A DNA stretch of 33,021 bases, from contig CABYDS010000003.1 in NCBI GenBank assembly GCA_902517745.1, positions 1 through 33,021 on the forward strand. The letters run 5' to 3'. Source of the DNA: an uncultured Pelagibacteraceae bacterium (GTDB taxonomy: Bacteria; Pseudomonadota; Alphaproteobacteria; Pelagibacterales; Pelagibacteraceae). Both the position numbers and the translations under genes were made by a program. Every line of letters starts with the position of its first letter. Within the stretch, counting starts at the first letter, position 1. The notes under the pieces are model-generated. The model had not been told where the DNA came from and made no database searches. It saw nothing but the letters and a program-made list of their open reading frames with translations. Below are positions 7,059 to 21,353 of this stretch, piece by piece.

Positions 7059-7631
7059 ATGAAAAAAATTATTGCTGGTGTTGATGAAGTTGGAAGAGGA
7101 AGCCTTGTAGGACCAGTTTATGCAGCGGCTGTTATATTAAATAAAGAAATTAATAGAAAAATTCTTAAAGATTCAAAAAAACTTAACAAAATTCAGAGGC
7201 AATCTTTAGCTAAATATATAAAAAAAAATTCAGTTTGGGCGTTAGGATCTGCATCAATAAAGGAAATTGAAAAAATTAATATTTTAAATGCTAGCCTACT
7301 TTCAATGAAAAGAGCAATTAAGAAACTCAAATTGAAACCTAAAAAAGTTTTAATAGATGGTAATAAACCACCAGACTTAAAAAATTATGTAATTAAAACT
7401 ATTGTAAAAGGTGATGAAAAAATTCCTGAAATTTCAGCCGCATCGATTATTGCTAAAGTTGAAAGAGATAAGCTAATGAAAAAGATGTCTTTTTCTTTTA
7501 AAAAATACGGCTGGGATAATAATGCAGGTTATGGAACTAAGGATCATATTAAAGCTATTAAAAAATTTGGAGTGACTAGATTTCATAGAAAAACCTTCCA
7601 ACCAATACACAAGATATTGAGTCTAAAATAA
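7059..7631 (+). CDS. rnhB: Ribonuclease HII
   Basis: RNase HII cuts RNA in RNA/DNA hybrids and starts removal of single ribonucleotides from DNA. The 190-residue protein has the type 2 RNase H signature: the acidic pair in AGVDEVGRGSLVGPV (D9, E10), LIDGNKPP with the third Asp, and the ISAASIIAKVERD helix, followed by GYGTKDHIKAI and the basic C-terminal HRKTFQP segment. Length is normal. It precedes ccrM, an arrangement common in alphaproteobacteria. The second RNase H of this genome (rnhA) is also in the window. Confidence 0.96.
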   Translation: MKKIIAGVDEVGRGSLVGPVYAAAVILNKEINRKILKDSKKLNKIQRQSLAKYIKKNSVWALGSASIKEIEKINILNASLLSMKRAIKKLKLKPKKVLIDGNKPPDLKNYVIKTIVKGDEKIPEISAASIIAKVERDKLMKKMSFSFKKYGWDNNAGYGTKDHIKAIKKFGVTRFHRKTFQPIHKILSLK

Positions 7632-7670: not shown

Positions 7671-7699
7671 TTGACGTAGACTCCTGACTGGAGTCTAAT
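7671..7699 (+). promoter_or_regulatory. Candidate ccrM promoter with two GANTC sites
   Basis: TTGACG (7671-7676) and TCTAAT (7694-7699) are separated by 17 nt, a good sigma-70-type promoter. GACTC (7679-7683) lies in the spacer and GAGTC (7691-7695) covers the first two bases of the -10. Both are GANTC, the target of the enzyme encoded just downstream. Transcription from this promoter would start about 7 nt before the ATG at 7713, with no Shine-Dalgarno, so the mRNA may be almost leaderless. In Caulobacter, GANTC methylation of the ccrM promoter region lowers ccrM transcription; the same feedback here is inference. Confidence 0.6.
7677..7697. repeat. 8-bp inverted repeat in the ccrM promoter spacer
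   Basis: TAGACTCC-TGACT-GGAGTCTA is a perfect inverted repeat with a 5-nt centre. Each arm contains one GANTC site. It sits between the -35 and -10 hexamers of the candidate ccrM promoter, so it could be a protein-binding operator or a DNA cruciform/hairpin. Confidence 0.75.
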
Positions 7700-7712
7700 T
7701 CAAAAATATAAA

Positions 7713-8786
7713 ATGATCATTTCAGACATAAAAAATAAAATTATTAATGGAGATAGTATTAAGGAATTAAAAAAAATTCCGGCTGAAAGTTTTGATCTGA
7801 TATTTGCAGATCCACCTTACAACCTTCAACTGAAAAAAGAATTAAGTCGACCTGATAGATCTAAAGTCGATGCTGTAGACGATGCGTGGGATAAATTTGA
7901 TAGTTTTAAAAGTTATGATGAGTTTTCAGTTCAATGGCTTAAAGAATGTAAAAGAATTTTAAAAAAAAATGGATCTATATGGGTCATAGGAAGTTATCAT
8001 AATATTTTTAGAGTTGGTTCAAAAATGCAAGATTTAGGTTTTTGGATACTAAATGATGTGATTTGGAATAAAAATAACCCTATGCCAAATTTTAGAGGAA
8101 CACGTTTTACGAATGCGCACGAAACACTCATATGGGCATCAAAAAGTGAAGGCTCAAAATATACTTTTAATTATCAATCACTTAAATGTTTAAACGATGA
8201 TCTACAGATGAGATCTACATGGAATTTACCTATATGTAATGGAAAAGAAAGACTTAAAAATAATGGTAATAAAGTTCACTCAACGCAAAAGCCAGAGTCT
8301 TTATTGCACAGAATTATATTAGCATCGTCTAATAAAGGTGATTTAATATTGGACCCGTTTCTCGGTACGGGAACAACTGCTGTAGTTTCAAAAAAGTTAG
8401 GTAGAAATTATTTTGGGATAGAAAAAGAAAAAAACTATTTTGAAGCTGCAAGTAAAAGAATTAAAAATACAAAAATTATAGAAGATGAATATTTAGATAC
8501 TATAAAAAATAATAGATCCAAACCAAGGGTGCCATTTGGATCTTTGGTTGAATTAGGAATTATTAAACCTGGTACTGAAATTTTTGATCAAAAAAAACAA
8601 ATCAATGCGAAAATTATGATTGATGGTAGTATAAAATATCGGAAATCAGAAGGATCAATTCATAAAGTTGCTGCACAAATATTAGGTGCTGAGAGCTGTA
8701 ACGGTTGGACTTTTTGGTATTATAAATCAGGTAATTCACTCAAACCAATTGATGATTTGAGGCAAAGACTAAGGCCAACTACTTAA
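7713..8786 (+). CDS. ccrM: Cell-cycle DNA adenine methyltransferase CcrM (GANTC)
   Basis: CcrM methylates adenine in GANTC and, in alphaproteobacteria, marks newly replicated DNA and times cell-cycle transcription. The 357-residue protein is a beta-class N6-adenine methylase: catalytic motif IV DPPYNL at 33-38 comes before the AdoMet motif DPFLGTGTT, with the target-recognition segment between them. The last 85 or so residues (from about VPFGSLVELGIIKPGT to GWTFWYYK) form the C-terminal domain characteristic of CcrM. GANTC specificity is inferred from this full-length match. No restriction partner is nearby, consistent with a solitary regulatory methylase. It overlaps the convergent monooxygenase stop by 4 nt (TTAA). 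Confidence 0.95.
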   Translation: MIISDIKNKIINGDSIKELKKIPAESFDLIFADPPYNLQLKKELSRPDRSKVDAVDDAWDKFDSFKSYDEFSVQWLKECKRILKKNGSIWVIGSYHNIFRVGSKMQDLGFWILNDVIWNKNNPMPNFRGTRFTNAHETLIWASKSEGSKYTFNYQSLKCLNDDLQMRSTWNLPICNGKERLKNNGNKVHSTQKPESLLHRIILASSNKGDLILDPFLGTGTTAVVSKKLGRNYFGIEKEKNYFEAASKRIKNTKIIEDEYLDTIKNNRSKPRVPFGSLVELGIIKPGTEIFDQKKQINAKIMIDGSIKYRKSEGSIHKVAAQILGAESCNGWTFWYYKSGNSLKPIDDLRQRLRPTT

Positions 8787-9907
8787 TTTCTATAAATTTT
8801 TCCAAGATAACTCTCTAGAAATTTTTTATTTTTTGATAAAAATTTCAAAACAATATTTCTAATTAATATTATTATTGGATTAGTTAAATGGAAGGCAAAA
8901 TGGTTTAATTTTGATCTTTTATTTACTAGTAATATTTTACTTACTTTATCTTTATAAATACTATTTGAACTTGTAATATTTTCAAAAATACCATTTGCTG
9001 TTTCAATACTTTGAGAAGCACCTTGTGCAAAAGAAGGTGGAAAAGCAAATAAAGCATCTCCACTCAAAAAAGTATTTTGGTATTTTAATGAGGGTAATTC
9101 AGTGCTCACAAATACAGGAAAACACTTTAAATTTACTAAATTTTCCAAATTTATAATAGAATTTTTTGAAATAAGGTCTTTTAAAGATTTTATAAATGTT
9201 TCAGAATTAAGAATATTTTTATCTTCAATTTCTTTAGTAGTTAACTTCTTTTTAATTATAGCAACGAAATTGTATTCGAGTTTTTGATTTACAGGATAAG
9301 TTACATAGTGAAAATTTGACCCCATATATACAGAAATATTATCTTTTTCATGTTGTTTTAAATTCGCCCTTAAAGCAATGTTCCCATTAAAAATTGGGTT
9401 TAAATCATTATTGGATATTTGGGATTTTAATTTTGAAAAAACACCGTCTGCAATTACTATATAATCGAAACTTTCATTCTTATTATTCCAAGAAATCTTT
9501 ATTTTTTCATTATATTCGATATTTTGAATATTGGCTTTAAATTGAATTTTTTCCTCAGGAATATTGCCAATTAAAAACTTTATTAATGTTGATCTTTTAA
9601 GTGTTGTGTAACGGTCGTTTACATTATTGAATTGCTTTAAATCAATTTCACAAATCTTTTTAATATTATTAGCCTGGAAAAAATTAACTTTTGTTGGATA
9701 ATAAACATCTGATGCTGAAATATTTTTAAATCCTATTTTATTCAACAAATTAATACTATTAACTGAAAGTTGAATGCCATAACCTTCATTTAAATTGAGG
9801 TAATCTTTTTTTTCAAAGATTTTATAGTCTATTTCAGTATTTTTGTTTAATTCATTTGCAAGATACAAACCAGATATGCCAGCTCCAACAATTGCAACTT
9901 TTTTCAT
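8783..9907 (-). CDS. FAD-dependent aromatic-hydroxylase-type monooxygenase
   Basis: The 374-residue protein belongs to the group A flavin monooxygenases (UbiH/salicylate hydroxylase-like). It has the N-terminal dinucleotide-binding loop VAIVGAGISGLYLA (about 4-17), and the FAD-ribityl motif GDALFAFPPSFAQGASQSIE near residues 275-295. A DG-type motif appears as YIVIADGVFSKLK. The substrate-binding beta domain is divergent, so the substrate cannot be read from sequence; a ubiquinone-ring hydroxylase is possible but unproven. Its ATG overlaps the mutY stop by 4 nt, suggesting translational coupling, and it converges on ccrM. Confidence 0.85.
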   Translation of the reverse strand: MKKVAIVGAGISGLYLANELNKNTEIDYKIFEKKDYLNLNEGYGIQLSVNSINLLNKIGFKNISASDVYYPTKVNFFQANNIKKICEIDLKQFNNVNDRYTTLKRSTLIKFLIGNIPEEKIQFKANIQNIEYNEKIKISWNNKNESFDYIVIADGVFSKLKSQISNNDLNPIFNGNIALRANLKQHEKDNISVYMGSNFHYVTYPVNQKLEYNFVAIIKKKLTTKEIEDKNILNSETFIKSLKDLISKNSIINLENLVNLKCFPVFVSTELPSLKYQNTFLSGDALFAFPPSFAQGASQSIETANGIFENITSSNSIYKDKVSKILLVNKRSKLNHFAFHLTNPIIILIRNIVLKFLSKNKKFLESYLGKIYRN

Positions 9908-10897
9908 TCAGATTTTGCGATGGTATAAAATATTTTTTTGGTAAATGATGGAATTATTTCTGAGCTTAATTTGTCTTTTTTAATTAATATTTTATTTTTA
10001 ATCTTTGGAGGTCTCTTTGCATTATTTAGCAAAATTTTCATTTCCATATTAGATAATTTTATATTAATTTTTTTATTATTTGAATAATTATACTTACTTT
10101 CTCGAACTTCAGTCATAGGAAAAATTGGCATATTTTTTAAAAATTTAAATTTATCATTTTTGACTAATAAGTAGTTATTATGTTTTTTGTAAATAGTCGC
10201 TTCGAAATATTTAGTTTTTATTTCTTTATTAATTTTAGTTAACTCAAAATCATTTTTTTTAAAAGATATACAATTTTTATTTAATGGACATTCTTTACAA
10301 CTTGGATTTTTTGGTTTGCAAATTAAAGCACCTATTTCCATAATTGCTTGTGAGTAATCGCTGGCACGATCGGACAGTCCAAAAAAATTAATTTTTGTTA
10401 TTAAAAAATCTTTAGATATTTCGTTCTGCTTTTTTAAATACAAAGTTCTTTTAAGAATTCTCTCTACATTTCCATCTAAAGGAATAGTTTTAACGTTAAA
10501 TGCTATAGACATTATTGCTTTAGATGTATATTCACCTACTCCTGGTAATTCTATTAACTTTTCATAAGATTTTGGCAACTTACCATGGAAATCTCTAACA
10601 ATTATAATTGCACTTTTTTTTAAATTTCTTGCTCTTGAATAATAACCAAGTCCTTCCCAATGTTTCATTAAGATCTTTTCGTCGACATTTGCCAATGATT
10701 GAAAGGTTGGAATTTGTTTTACAAATTTTTTTAAAATAAGGAATAACAGTTTTTACTTGAGTTTGCTGCAACATAAATTCACTAACAAACGTAAAATATT
10801 CTTTTTGCTTGTGAGAAACTTTTTTTCTCCAAGGTAAAATTCTTTTATTATTATCGTACCAAAGTAGAATTTTATTTGATATGTTTTTATTATTCAT
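9904..10897 (-). CDS. mutY: A/G-specific adenine glycosylase MutY, frameshifted
   Basis: MutY removes adenine mispaired with 8-oxoguanine. Reading from ATG 10897, the first frame gives MNNKNISNKILLWYD, ILPWR and the catalytic-Glu segment SEFMLQQTQV, then IPYFKK. A run of seven A (minus strand; 10726-10732) has one base too many. Skipping it gives FVKQIPTFQSLANVDEKIL and EGLGYYSRARN in line with MutY. The second frame holds LPGVGEYTSKAI, the catalytic Asp in PLDGNVERIL, and the 4Fe-4S ligands C-x6-C-x2-C-x5-C (CKPKNPSCKECPLNKNC). The corrected protein is about 330 residues, near normal length. The start codon abuts that of the divergent DUF721 gene. I treat it as intact apart from a base-count error. 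Confidence 0.92.
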
Positions 10898-11380
10898 ATG
10901 AGTCAAAAATATAATACTAAGCAGAGATATAATTCCATTCAAGGTTTAAGATCTTTTAAAGATACTTTACCCACAGAAGCAAAAAGAATAATTAGCAAAA
11001 AAGGTAAAATTTATAATGAGACTTTAGATAATTGGAAATATTTAGTAGGTAAAGATTTATTTAAAGTAAGCTTTCCTAAGTCATATAAAAGTTCAAACAA
11101 GTTATCGGGCAGTCGTTTAAATATTTTAGTAAAGAGGGGAAATGAAGTTGACGTTGAGTATTCTAAAAAAGAAATAATAAAAAAAATTAATGTTTTTTTT
11201 GGCTATCATGTTTTAGATGACATTAAATTGAATACATTTGATGGAAAAATTGAAGAAAGCCATAAAAATACCGCTATTAATGCGACAAAAAATAAACATA
11301 TAAAGAGCATAAATAATATTAAAAATGACAAAATAAAAAACTCACTTTTAGAGCTAAGTAAACATTTTAAAATAAAATGA
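10898..11380 (+). CDS. DUF721 protein, DciA-like replicative helicase loader candidate
   Basis: The 160-residue protein has the DUF721 pattern in its centre (about 45-120): NWKYLVGKDLFKVSFP, a strand LNILVKRG, then KKEIIKKINVFFGYHVLDDIKLN. DUF721 includes DciA, which works with the DnaB helicase in bacteria lacking DnaC/DnaI. The N-terminus and the Lys/Asn-rich C-terminal tail are not conserved. The position between mutY and a dsbA-like gene followed by smc is a recurrent alphaproteobacterial neighbourhood. The ATG begins immediately next to the mutY ATG on the other strand, so its promoter must lie inside mutY. Helicase loading is inferred from the family only. Confidence 0.75.
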   Translation: MSQKYNTKQRYNSIQGLRSFKDTLPTEAKRIISKKGKIYNETLDNWKYLVGKDLFKVSFPKSYKSSNKLSGSRLNILVKRGNEVDVEYSKKEIIKKINVFFGYHVLDDIKLNTFDGKIEESHKNTAINATKNKHIKSINNIKNDKIKNSLLELSKHFKIK

Positions 11381-16927: not shown

Positions 16928-18386
16928 ATGAATTCAATTGTAATTGGATCAGGTTTTGGTGGCATAGCAGCAGCTCTTAGACTCCGGGCAAAAGGTCATA
17001 AAGTCACTTTAATTGAAAAACAAAAAGATTTAGGTGGAAGAGCGAGAGTATTTAAAAGTAATGGGTTCACTTATGATGGTGGACCAACTGTAATAACCGC
17101 TCCTTATTTAATTTATGAAATTTTTAAACTTTTTAATAAAAATCCAGATGATTACATAAAAATAAAAGATTTGGATACTTGGTACAGATTTGTTTTCGAA
17201 GATGGAAGCCATTTTGATTATTCAGCTGATGAAAAGAAAATGGAAGAGCAAATTGCAATAATTAATCATAAAGATGTCATGGGTTACAGAAATTTACTTA
17301 AATTTACAAAAAAAATATTTGATAAGGGTTATTCAGAATTATCAGATGTGCCATTTGATAAACCTTCATTTATGTTTAAGCAAATTCCTGCTTTGCTAAG
17401 TTTAAAAAGTTATAAATCTGTTTATTCTTTGGTTAGTGGTTTTATTGAAAATGAAAAACTAAGAAGGCTATTTAGTATGCACCCATTATTGGTAGGTGGG
17501 AACCCTTTTACTACAACCTCTATATATGGATTAATTTTATATTTAGAAAAAAAAATGGGGAATTCATTATTCTATGGGTGGAACAGGACAAATCATAAAA
17601 GGATTTGAGAAATTGATGTTAGAGGAAGATGTTGCAATTATTAAAGGTAAAGAAGTTAAAAACTTGCTTACAGAAAATAAAAGAGTTGTCGGGGTTGTGA
17701 CAAGTGAAGATGAGGAAATTAAAGCAGATAACGTAGTTTGTAATGCAGATCCTCCCGGTGTTTATTCCAAAATGCTAAATAATCAAAAATATAACACCTT
17801 ATTTAATTGGAAGATAAATAGAATGGAATATTCAATGGGATTGTTTGTTTATTACTTTGGAACGAAGAAAAAATATGAAAATGTTGAACATCATACTATA
17901 AAGTTTGGCGACAAATACAAAGAACACTTGGATGATATATTTGTAAATAAAAAATTAAATAACGATATAAGCTATTACCTACATAGACCTACTGCAACAG
18001 ATTCGAGTATGGCACCAAAAGATCATGATTGCTTTTATGTATTAGTGCCTGTACCTAATAATAAGTCAGGAATAGACTGGTCAGTAGAAGGTGAAAATCT
18101 AAAAAAACTTGTAATAGATAAAATGGAAAAAAGTTTATTACCTAATTTAAGAGAAAATATTGTAGATGATTTTTATTTAACTCCTGATTATTTTGAGAAT
18201 GAATTAAATACAAAATACGGCTCTGGTTTTTCAATTCAGCCCAAATTTTCTCAATCAGCATACTTTAGATTTCATAATAAATCTGAGGTTTATGATGGTT
18301 TATATTTTGTTGGAGCGGGCACTCATCCTGGAGCTGGTGTACCAGGTGTCCTATCATCCGCAAAGGTCTTAGATAAAATTTTGTAA
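16928..18386 (+). CDS. crtI: Phytoene desaturase CrtI, frameshifted
   Basis: CrtI introduces the double bonds that turn phytoene into lycopene. The first frame opens with the FAD loop VIGSGFGGIAAALRLRAKGH and DLGGRARVF, and runs to 17608. The second begins near 17574 and ends with YFVGAGTHPGAGVPGVLSSAK, the CrtI C-terminal signature. The join is a run of nine A (17547-17555): with eight, the text reads LEKKWGIHYSMGGTGQIIKGF, matching the family. The corrected protein is about 485 residues, normal for CrtI. An AAGGA (16921-16925) precedes the ATG by only 2 nt. It heads the crtI-crtB-crtY-blh unit and shares one base with the crtB start (TAATG). A base-count error is likelier than a pseudogene. 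Confidence 0.92.
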
Positions 18387-19237: not shown

Positions 19238-20291
19238 TTACATAATTATTGGAGGCGGCTGTGCAGGCTTAACATTGGCTTACGAGTTAGAGTATCACGA
19301 TAAACTTAAAAAAAAGACTTTAGCAATTATTGAAAAAAGAGATGAATATAAAAGAGATAAAACTTGGTCATACTGGAAAACTGTACCTCACAAGTTTGAT
19401 GACTGTGTAAAAAAAAGATGGAAAGATTATACAATCAATTTTAAAGGAAATGTTGAATATAAAGATTGTAAAGAAACTCCTTATGAAAGTATTGATAGTG
19501 GACTATTCTACAAAAAGATTTTAAATAAAATCAATAAAAATCCTAATATTCAATTCTTTAAAGATATTAGTGAAGTAAATACTGAAAAAGCAATTTTATT
19601 TAACAGTTTACCAAATCTTGAAAGCAAAGATTCTAATTTATGGCAACACTTCCAAGGCGTTGAGATTGAAACTGAAAAAGATTTTTTTGATGATCAAATA
19701 ATGAATTTGATGGACTTTGATTGTGATCAAAAAAAAAGTGTACATTTTTTCTATACACTACCCTATTCAAAAAAATCAGCTTTAATCGAAACTACGTGGC
19801 TTTCAAAAATGGAAGATGGTAGTGAAAAAGATTATGATAAACAAATTACTGAATACATCGAAAACACTTTAAAATTAAAAAAATATAAAATTAATTATAA
19901 AGAAGTTGGGGCTATACCATTATTTTATCCAAAATTTAAAAACGATAAAAATATGATTAATATTGGAACTGCTGGAGGTATGACACGTTTAAGCACTGGC
20001 TATACTTTCCTAAATATTCAAGAACAGGCAGAATATATTACCCAAAACATTGATAAAATAACCCAAACTAGAACTTTCAATATAAAAAATAAGTATAAGT
20101 TTTTAGATAATGTTTTTTTGAAAGTCCTAGCTGAAAAGCCAGAGATCATGCCAAATATTTTCTTCAAAATGTTTAAAAGCAATTCAAAAACAGTAATAAA
20201 TTTTCTTTCCAATAAAAGTAATATTTTCGAGGACTTATCCATTATATTAAAGATGCCAAAATGGATTTTTATTAAAGCTGTATTTAAATAA
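19224..20291 (+). CDS. crtY: Lycopene beta-cyclase
   Basis: CrtY closes both ends of lycopene to give beta-carotene. The protein begins MKDFDYIIIGGGCAGLTLAY, a Rossmann dinucleotide motif, followed by DKTWSYW near residue 50 and, later, IGTAGGMTRLSTGYTF, both typical of CrtY-type cyclases. I prefer ATG 19224 (355 residues) over the upstream TTG at 19215, which would only add three residues. The gene overlaps the end of crtB and shares its final base with the ATG of blh. The C-terminal part (IFFKMFKSNSK...) is also family-like. Confidence 0.93.
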   Translation: MKDFDYIIIGGGCAGLTLAYELEYHDKLKKKTLAIIEKRDEYKRDKTWSYWKTVPHKFDDCVKKRWKDYTINFKGNVEYKDCKETPYESIDSGLFYKKILNKINKNPNIQFFKDISEVNTEKAILFNSLPNLESKDSNLWQHFQGVEIETEKDFFDDQIMNLMDFDCDQKKSVHFFYTLPYSKKSALIETTWLSKMEDGSEKDYDKQITEYIENTLKLKKYKINYKEVGAIPLFYPKFKNDKNMINIGTAGGMTRLSTGYTFLNIQEQAEYITQNIDKITQTRTFNIKNKYKFLDNVFLKVLAEKPEIMPNIFFKMFKSNSKTVINFLSNKSNIFEDLSIILKMPKWIFIKAVFK

Positions 20292-21353
20292 TGATCAACA
20301 AAATAAATTTTTTTCATTCTATTATTTTTTTTAATATCTGTATTTTTTTTTCTGCCTTTGAGGTATTGAGAGATAATTCGTTTATACTTTTTAGTTTTTT
20401 TTTAATTCTTACAATTGGCATCTCTCATGGTGCTCTGGATCATGAAAAAGGTAAAAAACTTTTAAAAATTTATAAAATTAAAAATACAGAAGTATTCTAT
20501 ATTACTTATATAGGTATTGCTATTTTTGTTATTTTAATCTGGATTTTAAGTCCAATATTGTTGCTTTCGCTTTTTTTTAATATTTGCAGCATATCATTTT
20601 GGCAAAGAGGATAGTGACTTTATCAAAACAAAAAATGTTAATTTTTTAGAAATTTTTTATTTTATTAAAGGATCATTAGTTATTTCAGCACCCTTGCTAT
20701 TTCATAAAACCGAGACTATCGAAATTTTTAAAATGTTAAATTTTTCAATAGACGAAAATATTGTGGCTAATAATTTTTTAATTCCTTTAGTTATATTATC
20801 GGTGCTAAGTAATTTAGTTATATATAGAGGTAATAATAATGATTTAAGATCAATTCTTTTTTTAGATAGTTTTTCAATAATTATTTTAAATTATTTTTTT
20901 AACCCTATATTGGCTTTCACTATTTATTTCTGCTTTCTTCATTCTATTAGACATTCACTAAGTTTAATTAGTGAGATAAATAAAAATTTGATGAAAGGAT
21001 TTCCTATTTTTTTACGAAAAATTATTCCACTTACAGTCATTACAGCAATAATGTATTTGATTGTTTTTTATTTTATTTCAGAAAAATTTGGTATAGATGA
21101 GAGTATTATTAAAATAATATTTGTTGGATTGGCTTCATTGACCTTTCCTCATATTTTACTTGAATTCATGGTAGAAAAAAAAATGAAAAATAAAACTATA
21201 AATCTAATTGGATGGATATTGTTTATTATATCTTCAATTGGTTTCATCATTTCAAGTGTAGGAAGTTTTTGGGCCATGTTTGGAAGCTTATTTTTTTTTA
21301 TTGCTTGTATAGTATTTTTAATTCCATTTTTTAAAAAGGATGAAAATGAGTAA
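20291..21353 (+). CDS. blh: Beta-carotene 15,15'-dioxygenase (Brp/Blh), frameshifted
   Basis: Blh splits beta-carotene into two retinals, the proteorhodopsin chromophore. It is an all-helical membrane protein with metal-binding histidines. The first frame (to 20614) has ISHGALDHEKG (H46, H51). A run of eight T (20571-20578) is one base too long; with seven, the frame continues as FLIFAAYHFGKEDSDF, giving the next His motif. The second frame then carries HSIRHSLSLI and FPHILLEFMVE. Corrected length is about 353 residues. All four His-containing motifs survive, so an intact gene with a base-count error is likely. It starts at the last base of crtY and overlaps ispH by 14 nt. Confidence 0.92.

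Follow-up and report, generated by a model that had tools for sequence, protein, structure and literature searches.

The locus studied here raises the question of why the gene for a DNA methyltransferase carries the target sites of its own product inside its core promoter, and what methylation of these sites would do to its expression. The window, meaning the whole stretch of DNA analysed, comprises 33,021 nucleotides from an uncultured Pelagibacteraceae (SAR11) bacterium. SAR11 bacteria rank with the most numerous cells of the ocean, and how they time their cell cycle without CtrA is, in our view, a question for the field. The ccrM gene of Caulobacter is driven by CtrA. Pelagibacter, in contrast, is reported to lack a ctrA ortholog (PMC2877005).

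The methyltransferase gene of the window was found to be ccrM, as the first-pass annotation had proposed. The protein is intact, with a methyltransferase domain (PF01555, E=3e-68) and a C-terminal RAMA domain (PF18755, E=3.3e-18), and its top solved relative is Caulobacter CcrMI (PDB 6pbd, E=7.8e-139, residues 9-354). It is 99-100% identical to the CcrM of the nearest named Pelagibacteraceae genomes. The NCBIfam equivalog NF050803 is by far the best-scoring model, matched over positions 3-349 of 350; the score of 580.9 bits lies below the curated cut-off of 830 and does not decide GANTC methylation, the defining feature of CcrM, which published methylation data support for Pelagibacter (PMC9516812). 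The three neighbours scanned, a uracil-DNA glycosylase, rnhB and a convergent FAD enzyme downstream of ccrM, include no endonuclease, and on this gene order the predicted enzyme is an orphan.

The TTGACG-17-TCTAAT promoter, the two GANTC sites and the perfect 8-bp dyad were all confirmed at the coordinates given in Table 1. The arms of the dyad, TAGACTCC (7677-7684) and GGAGTCTA (7690-7697), enclose a TGACT centre. Both sites fall inside the polymerase footprint, as had been claimed. T7694 and C7695 of site 2 form the leading two bases of TCTAAT, and the lower-strand methyl-adenine of this site would pair with T7694. The promoter was missed by a consensus promoter scan of the window, since TCTAAT has no A at its second position, and the exact register of the -10 is uncertain.

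Table 1. Features of the ccrM locus in the window
Feature	Position	Strand	Basis and remarks
rnhB, ribonuclease HII, upstream neighbour	7059-7631	+	ORF and profile search
Third, upstream GANTC (GAGTC)	7619-7623	+	Motif scan; within the 3' end of rnhB
-35 element TTGACG	7671-7676	+	Sequence; TTGAC present in 72/72 genus loci, the window's own counted
Spacer, exactly 17 bp	7677-7693	+	Sequence; contains site 1 and the initial three bases of site 2
Perfect 8-bp inverted repeat	7677-7697 (7677-7684 / 7690-7697)	.	Sequence; not conserved
GANTC site 1 (GACTC)	7679-7683	+	Motif scan; absent from 6/72 genus loci
GANTC site 2 (GAGTC)	7691-7695	+	Motif scan; overlaps the presumed -10
Presumed -10 TCTAAT	7694-7699	+	Sequence and conservation; register uncertain
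ccrM, GANTC adenine methyltransferase, 357 aa, N6_N4_Mtase + RAMA	7713-8786 (ATG at 7713)	+	ORF, profile search, structure-database match

The window as a whole is depleted of GANTC by 2.5-fold (36 observed, 89.3 expected from shuffles), so that promoter clusters stand out; three sites nevertheless lie inside 77 bp at the ccrM promoter. A sample of 585 kb from two relatives, each with its genome in a single contig, has GANTC 1.21 times per kb overall and 1.69 times per kb outside long frames, and three sites were present in 5 of 10,569 segments of 110 nt. Two GANTC in the next 24 nt were seen after only one of the 734 TTGAC words in this sample, that of the ccrM promoter of its genome. GANTC density in the 110 nt around the ccrM upstream reaches 27.1 per kb for the genus and 26.3 for the sister family, and stands at 20.5 for the family's other genera and 19.5 for other families of the class; the ccrM coding sequences of the same four groups have 0.74, 1.53, 1.56 and 1.75 per kb. 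The TTGAC/GANTC/GANTC pair did not occur once over 200 shuffles in any group.

A whole-genome search for TTGAC-N3-4-GANTC-N5-7-GANTC gave 61 matches in 59 of 81 SAR11 genomes; 58 stand beside ccrM and the remaining three are in genomes G020, G052 and G053. More general patterns do not exceed their reversed controls. GANTC-N5-8-GANTC occurs at 12 places in the window's genome (17 for the control), and TTGAC-N11-15-GANTC was below the control in all eight SAR11 genomes tried, with 17 against 24 in the window's own. The signal is therefore specific to ccrM. A repeated TTGAC..ATGACTC word was dropped after two of five fetched stretches had been checked, both lying inside long reading frames.

Conservation of both sites in relatives had been set beforehand as the test of the arrangement. 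Upstream DNA was anchored on TTGAC by script, and a pair was defined as two GANTC within 24 nt after TTGAC. The genus set (g1) consists of 72 loci, the window's own included, with 62 distinct 110-nt upstreams; it is made up mostly of best-scoring matches and hand-picked loci, is dominated by close relatives and covers only a part of the 186 genomes of the order with ccrM. A further set of 80 named loci overlaps with it, 37 of the 80 upstreams being identical to one in the genus set. Rows were excluded where there was no ccrM match (L064), where the gene start was off the contig (L307) or where the match was secondary (L267-L269), and L376 was unused.

The expectation was borne out in the genus and in the sister family (f2). 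Both sites are present in 65 of the 72 genus loci, and the other seven have one, six having lost site 1 and one (L288) site 2. Site 1 is missing from three close relatives (L224, L228 and L233). In the 65 pairs site 2 is always GAGTC at offset 20 from TTGAC, and the GAG in front of the T of TCTAAT shows 99-100% conservation across the genus. Site 1 is freer, at offset 8 in 48 loci and 9 in 17, with C (39), A (20), G (3) or T (3) as the variable base. The sister family holds both sites in 23 of 26 loci, with site 2 as GAATC at offset 19, and its other three loci lack site 1. Both sites were also found in 74 of the 80 named loci. A cluster of 35 GANTC is seen in the bin -55 to -51 from TTGAC over 60 distinct genus promoters.

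The expectation failed in some genera of the same family. Of 27 loci from its other genera none has two sites within these 24 nt, 21 have one and six have none (both g61, two of the four g63 and two g64 loci). A second GANTC in these genera has often moved into the presumed -10, the bin at +25 containing 15 sites for 22 promoters. A GANTC placed 19-20 from TTGAC was recorded in 61 of 62 distinct upstreams of the genus and 18 of 18 of the sister family, compared with 2 of 27 in the other genera and 17 of 41 in the class. The two g61 loci (L263, L264) have TTGACA as the -35 and no spacer GANTC. A compensation of site loss by TTGACA is doubtful and was dropped, as L259 and L260 (TTGACT) and L279 and L281 (TTGACC) are also without spacer sites.

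The dyad was not conserved. Arms of 8 bp were seen only in 18 of the 65 pairs of the genus, the other 47 having arms of 2-6 bp, and are absent from the 23 pairs of the sister family (2-5 bp) and the 17 pairs of the class (2-6 bp). The dyad was thereby ruled out as a functional unit, and the idea that it places the two sites in mirror-image hemimethylated contexts loses its support.

The class sample comprised 57 genomes, namely that of the window and 56 more that each represent a different family, and CcrM matches were present in 51. Upstream DNA was examined for all 41 long CcrM-like matches besides the window's; 36 of these loci have an rnhB match ahead of ccrM in the same orientation. TTGAC is followed by two GANTC in 17 loci, by one in eight and by none in six, and is missing from the stretch in ten. 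The 17 pairs come from 17 different families, with a spacing of 9-12 and site 2 at 19 or 20 in all, in genomes of about 1.7-6.5 Mb and with a locus G+C of 52-70%. The layout was thus not the compaction of a streamlined genome that had been suggested. Across all 105 pairs (genus 65, sister family 23, class 17) site 2 keeps to 19-20 nt from TTGAC, while the offset of site 1 ranges from 7 to 10 and all four bases occur at its N, GA..TC being kept. Within the 40 nt ahead of TTGAC another GANTC occurs in 23 of the 25 class promoters that have a site in the spacer, in all 15 distinct sister-family promoters, in 31 of 60 distinct genus promoters and in 11 of 22 other-genus promoters. TTGAC/GANTC/GANTC is therefore a layout widespread before ccrM in the Alphaproteobacteria, and a third GANTC frequently lies farther upstream. 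Because the arrangement is common to many other alphaproteobacteria, target sites of CcrM in its own promoter are probably an old feedback device rather than a small-genome novelty.

The position of the start codon supports the promoter assignment, since in most promoters the ATG falls at, or up to 9 nt past, a +1 at offset 35, which is calculated from the 17-bp spacer and is not a mapped start. The initial in-frame ATG has an offset of 41-44 in every one of the 72 genus promoters, which leaves some 6-9 nt of leader, and the near-leaderless start described for the window holds. It lies at 35-36 in 25 of 26 sister-family and 18 of 22 other-genus promoters. Of the 25 class promoters, 10 have it at 35-38 and the rest nearer (27, in three) or farther, with one not found. 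Many of these ccrM genes would be leaderless.

The design is not restricted to ccrM. A looser pair pattern matched in 33 of the 57 class-sample genomes, and the recurrent word besides ccrM was TTGAC-N4-5-GAATC-N6-7-GATTC. An FtsB-type gene lies just downstream of this word in 12 of 14 loci fetched from other alphaproteobacterial families (L309-L316, L318-L321), and starts 34-40 nt after TTGAC. Ten of these genes were assigned by Pfam DivIC, and two (L312, L315) by reading of the translation. No FtsB-type gene was found downstream of the word in L308. At L317 (genome G125) the word stands directly before a frame read as a transposase, which suggests an insertion or a borrowed promoter. Two of three fetched SAR11 loci of the sister family (L324, L327) have a pair of GANTC shortly ahead of ftsB, with no exact TTGAC. 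The 120 nt before ftsB contained no GANTC in any of the three genus loci with a placed start (L322, L326, L330).

A gene for GcrA, the sigma70 cofactor, is present in the window's genome (G000:C5:27525-27956; PF07750, E=9.3e-33, above cut-off), although it scores 101.3 bits with NF050816, below the cut-off of 280. PF07750 matched 70 of 81 SAR11 genomes, the window's counted, and 39 of 57 class genomes; in a control of 14 genomes it matched Caulobacter but also the unlikely Sulfolobus acidocaldarius. Class loci with a GcrA match (34) comprise 14 pairs, five single sites, six with none and nine without TTGAC; the one locus with a weak match has a pair; and the six without a match, some from incomplete genomes, comprise two pairs, three single sites and one without TTGAC. 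A second profile, built from nine GcrA proteins, again found no GcrA in those six genomes, a number too small for the association of the pair with GcrA to be tested. The pair before ccrM is retained in genome G128 and in the single-contig G135, and the one before ftsB in G100, three genomes in which the profiles found no GcrA. The promoter design can thus exist where GcrA is undetected, while six genomes are insufficient to prove independence. Control of gcrA by the same sites in SAR11 was rejected: the nearest GANTC is 426 nt upstream of gcrA in the window's genome, and none occurs in the 110 nt before gcrA in five of eight loci (L065, L066, L069-L071), in which the start was placed.

The reading placed first, at roughly even odds (a probability of about 0.5), is that the ccrM promoter is a methylation-responsive core promoter under replication-coupled autogenous control, with full methylation damping ccrM. 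Between the -10 and TTGAC lie the two GANTC, about one helical turn (9-12 bp) apart and the second in contact with the -10, and the RNA polymerase holoenzyme would have to cover both to start transcription. Passage of the replication fork would render both sites hemimethylated and permit transcription of ccrM. CcrM would then restore full methylation and damp its own gene, the outcome being an autogenous control of the enzyme coupled to replication. GcrA would probably help to read the sites without being indispensable. Starting from the observed sites, their position, their conservation and the presence of GcrA, we infer both an effect of methylation on promoter output and its sign.

The free N and shifting offset of site 1 indicate that selection acts on a site for methylation more than on a fixed word read by a protein, and pairs without a detected GcrA, as in G128 and G135, are expected if the polymerase itself senses the sites. 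GANTC methylation occurs in the group, with 3477 of 3482 GANTC motifs reported as fully methylated in SAR11 strain NP1 (PMC9516812). Published precedents exist for both signs. Transcription of the methyltransferase genes of CfrBI, AhdI and LlaDII is reported to be lowered by promoter methylation (PMC12707154), and the gcrA promoter of Agrobacterium, with six GANTC, to be repressed by it (PMC11514494). Caulobacter ccrM is described in a review as having a promoter with two GANTC and being expressed when hemimethylated (PMC10073500), and in a modelling paper as shut down by methylation and expressed from hemimethylated DNA (PMC2217572). It is this description that puts negative, replication-coupled feedback first. 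Against it stand the loss of site 1 in the three close relatives, the absence of the pair from other genera of the family and the 16 of 41 class loci without TTGAC and a spacer GANTC. The same double-site design before ftsB in many genomes is a further difficulty, as self-limitation would be senseless there.

A serious rival, ranked second and possible though less probable, reverses the sign. GcrA bound to sigma70 would recognise the methylated spacer sites and stimulate open-complex formation, so that ccrM would be on when methylated; ccrM and ftsB would belong to a core GcrA/CcrM regulon, with a positive feedback on ccrM lasting through the hemimethylated phase. The presence of GcrA in most SAR11 genomes and the design shared with ftsB fit this reading. 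It also draws on Caulobacter, where a GANTC between -35 and -10 is reported to activate ftsZ when methylated, mipZ being likewise activated (PMC3708114), and where a cluster of start sites with a spacer GANTC is switched on at 40-60 min (PMC4287350); these activating cases count against silencing. The GcrA target mipZ is described with two juxtaposed GANTC (PMC3667746). The methyl groups of the window's sites would lie in the region in which sigma70 and, in Caulobacter, GcrA are reported to act (PMC7403470). The genomes that keep a ccrM or ftsB pair with no GcrA found speak against it, as does the lack of enrichment of TTGAC-N11-15-GANTC in eight SAR11 genomes, where no large regulon is visible. 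The window sites read AGACTCC and GGAGTCT on the + strand, and neither fits YGAKTCK, the GcrA word of Caulobacter, though Brevundimonas is reported to show no such preference (PMC7987155). In the same report very few Pelagibacter ubique orthologs are given a high probability of GcrA control. It can also be reasoned that a positive feedback through the methylation mark would risk irreversible loss.

A bolder form of the preferred reading is improbable: the polymerase itself would read adenine methylation of both GANTC at the edge of the -10 without a dedicated regulator, and the promoter would be the ancestral core of an alphaproteobacterial replication-methylation clock, driving leaderless ccrM and ftsB and serving as the sole timer of CcrM in SAR11 bacteria without CtrA. 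Still more doubtful is that the sites bind a protein which keeps them unmethylated, or which reads GANTC-like DNA regardless of its methylation, the latter being incidental. MucR acts so at some hypomethylated GANTC. In a Pelagibacter genome 42 GANTC, mostly intergenic, are reported as unmethylated in all samples, in the same report that has nearly all NP1 sites methylated (PMC9516812), the latter count opposing such protection. The free N and variable offset of site 1 are ill-suited to a fixed operator, and a fixed repressor operator is disfavoured on these grounds. That the sites lack a role, being kept by descent and the need for a -10, is very unlikely. In its favour, the genus set consists largely of near relatives, site 1 is lost in some of them, and several genera of the family have no pair. 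It is strongly opposed by the density of GANTC, at 27.1, 26.3 and 19.5 per kb upstream compared with 0.7-1.8 per kb in coding sequence, by the shared position of site 2 in 17 loci of 17 families and by the conserved GAG.

Silencing by full methylation keeps the first place. The promoter can be set beside known systems. The ccrM promoter of Caulobacter crescentus is alike in belonging to an orphan CcrM gene, in its two GANTC (PMC10073500) and in the tie of expression to the hemimethylated state (PMC10073500, PMC2217572). The GcrA/CcrM-dependent promoters (ftsZ, mipZ, ctrA P1) share GANTC between or adjoining the -35 and -10, and GcrA, which covers the DNA between -35 and -10 in a footprint of fully methylated ctrA P1 (PMC3667746), is present in the window's genome. 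The double-site design of class ftsB is a further likeness. They differ from the ccrM promoter of the window, in which neither site fits YGAKTCK and the two sites are part of a near-fixed arrangement, often with a third upstream. The CfrBI, AhdI and LlaDII methyltransferase genes likewise hold the enzyme's own target inside their own core promoter, that of CfrBI lying within inverted repeats as in the window (PMC12707154). Unlike these enzymes, CcrM is an orphan with two target sites in its promoter, and it is replication to which its control would be coupled.

A ccrM promoter with two GANTC is already known from Caulobacter. Brilli et al. counted GANTC before cell-cycle genes across alphaproteobacteria and concluded nothing as to control (PMC2877005). 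The literature searched, outside which many older papers and supplements fall, yielded no account of the fixed geometry within the spacer, of how widely it occurs or of its counterpart before ftsB, and no report of ftsB with GANTC.

The conserved element, some 30 bp long, may couple the methyltransferase to replication and would offer a testable handle on cell-cycle timing in SAR11. Its near-fixed geometry in many families, common to the division gene ftsB, could provide a simple in vitro system for the reading of adenine methylation by polymerase and GcrA, and the geometry may serve as a promoter signature by which the CcrM circuit is traced in uncultured genomes.

Timing from chromosome position was considered and dropped, as GC skew follows gene orientation and genome G144 has no pattern. 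In genome G012 the skew is positive in seven of the first ten sampled stretches and negative in eight of the last ten, a hint that the origin is close to the beginning of the contig, ccrM lying at 135 kb.

Elsewhere in the window, genes at 16928-18386, 9904-10942, 1125-1766 and 20291-21353 are split across adjoining frames or shortened. They include an amine-oxidase family gene, which we take to be a phytoene desaturase, an HhH-GPD repair gene, a coproporphyrinogen oxidase and a beta-carotene dioxygenase; assembly indels are a likely cause.
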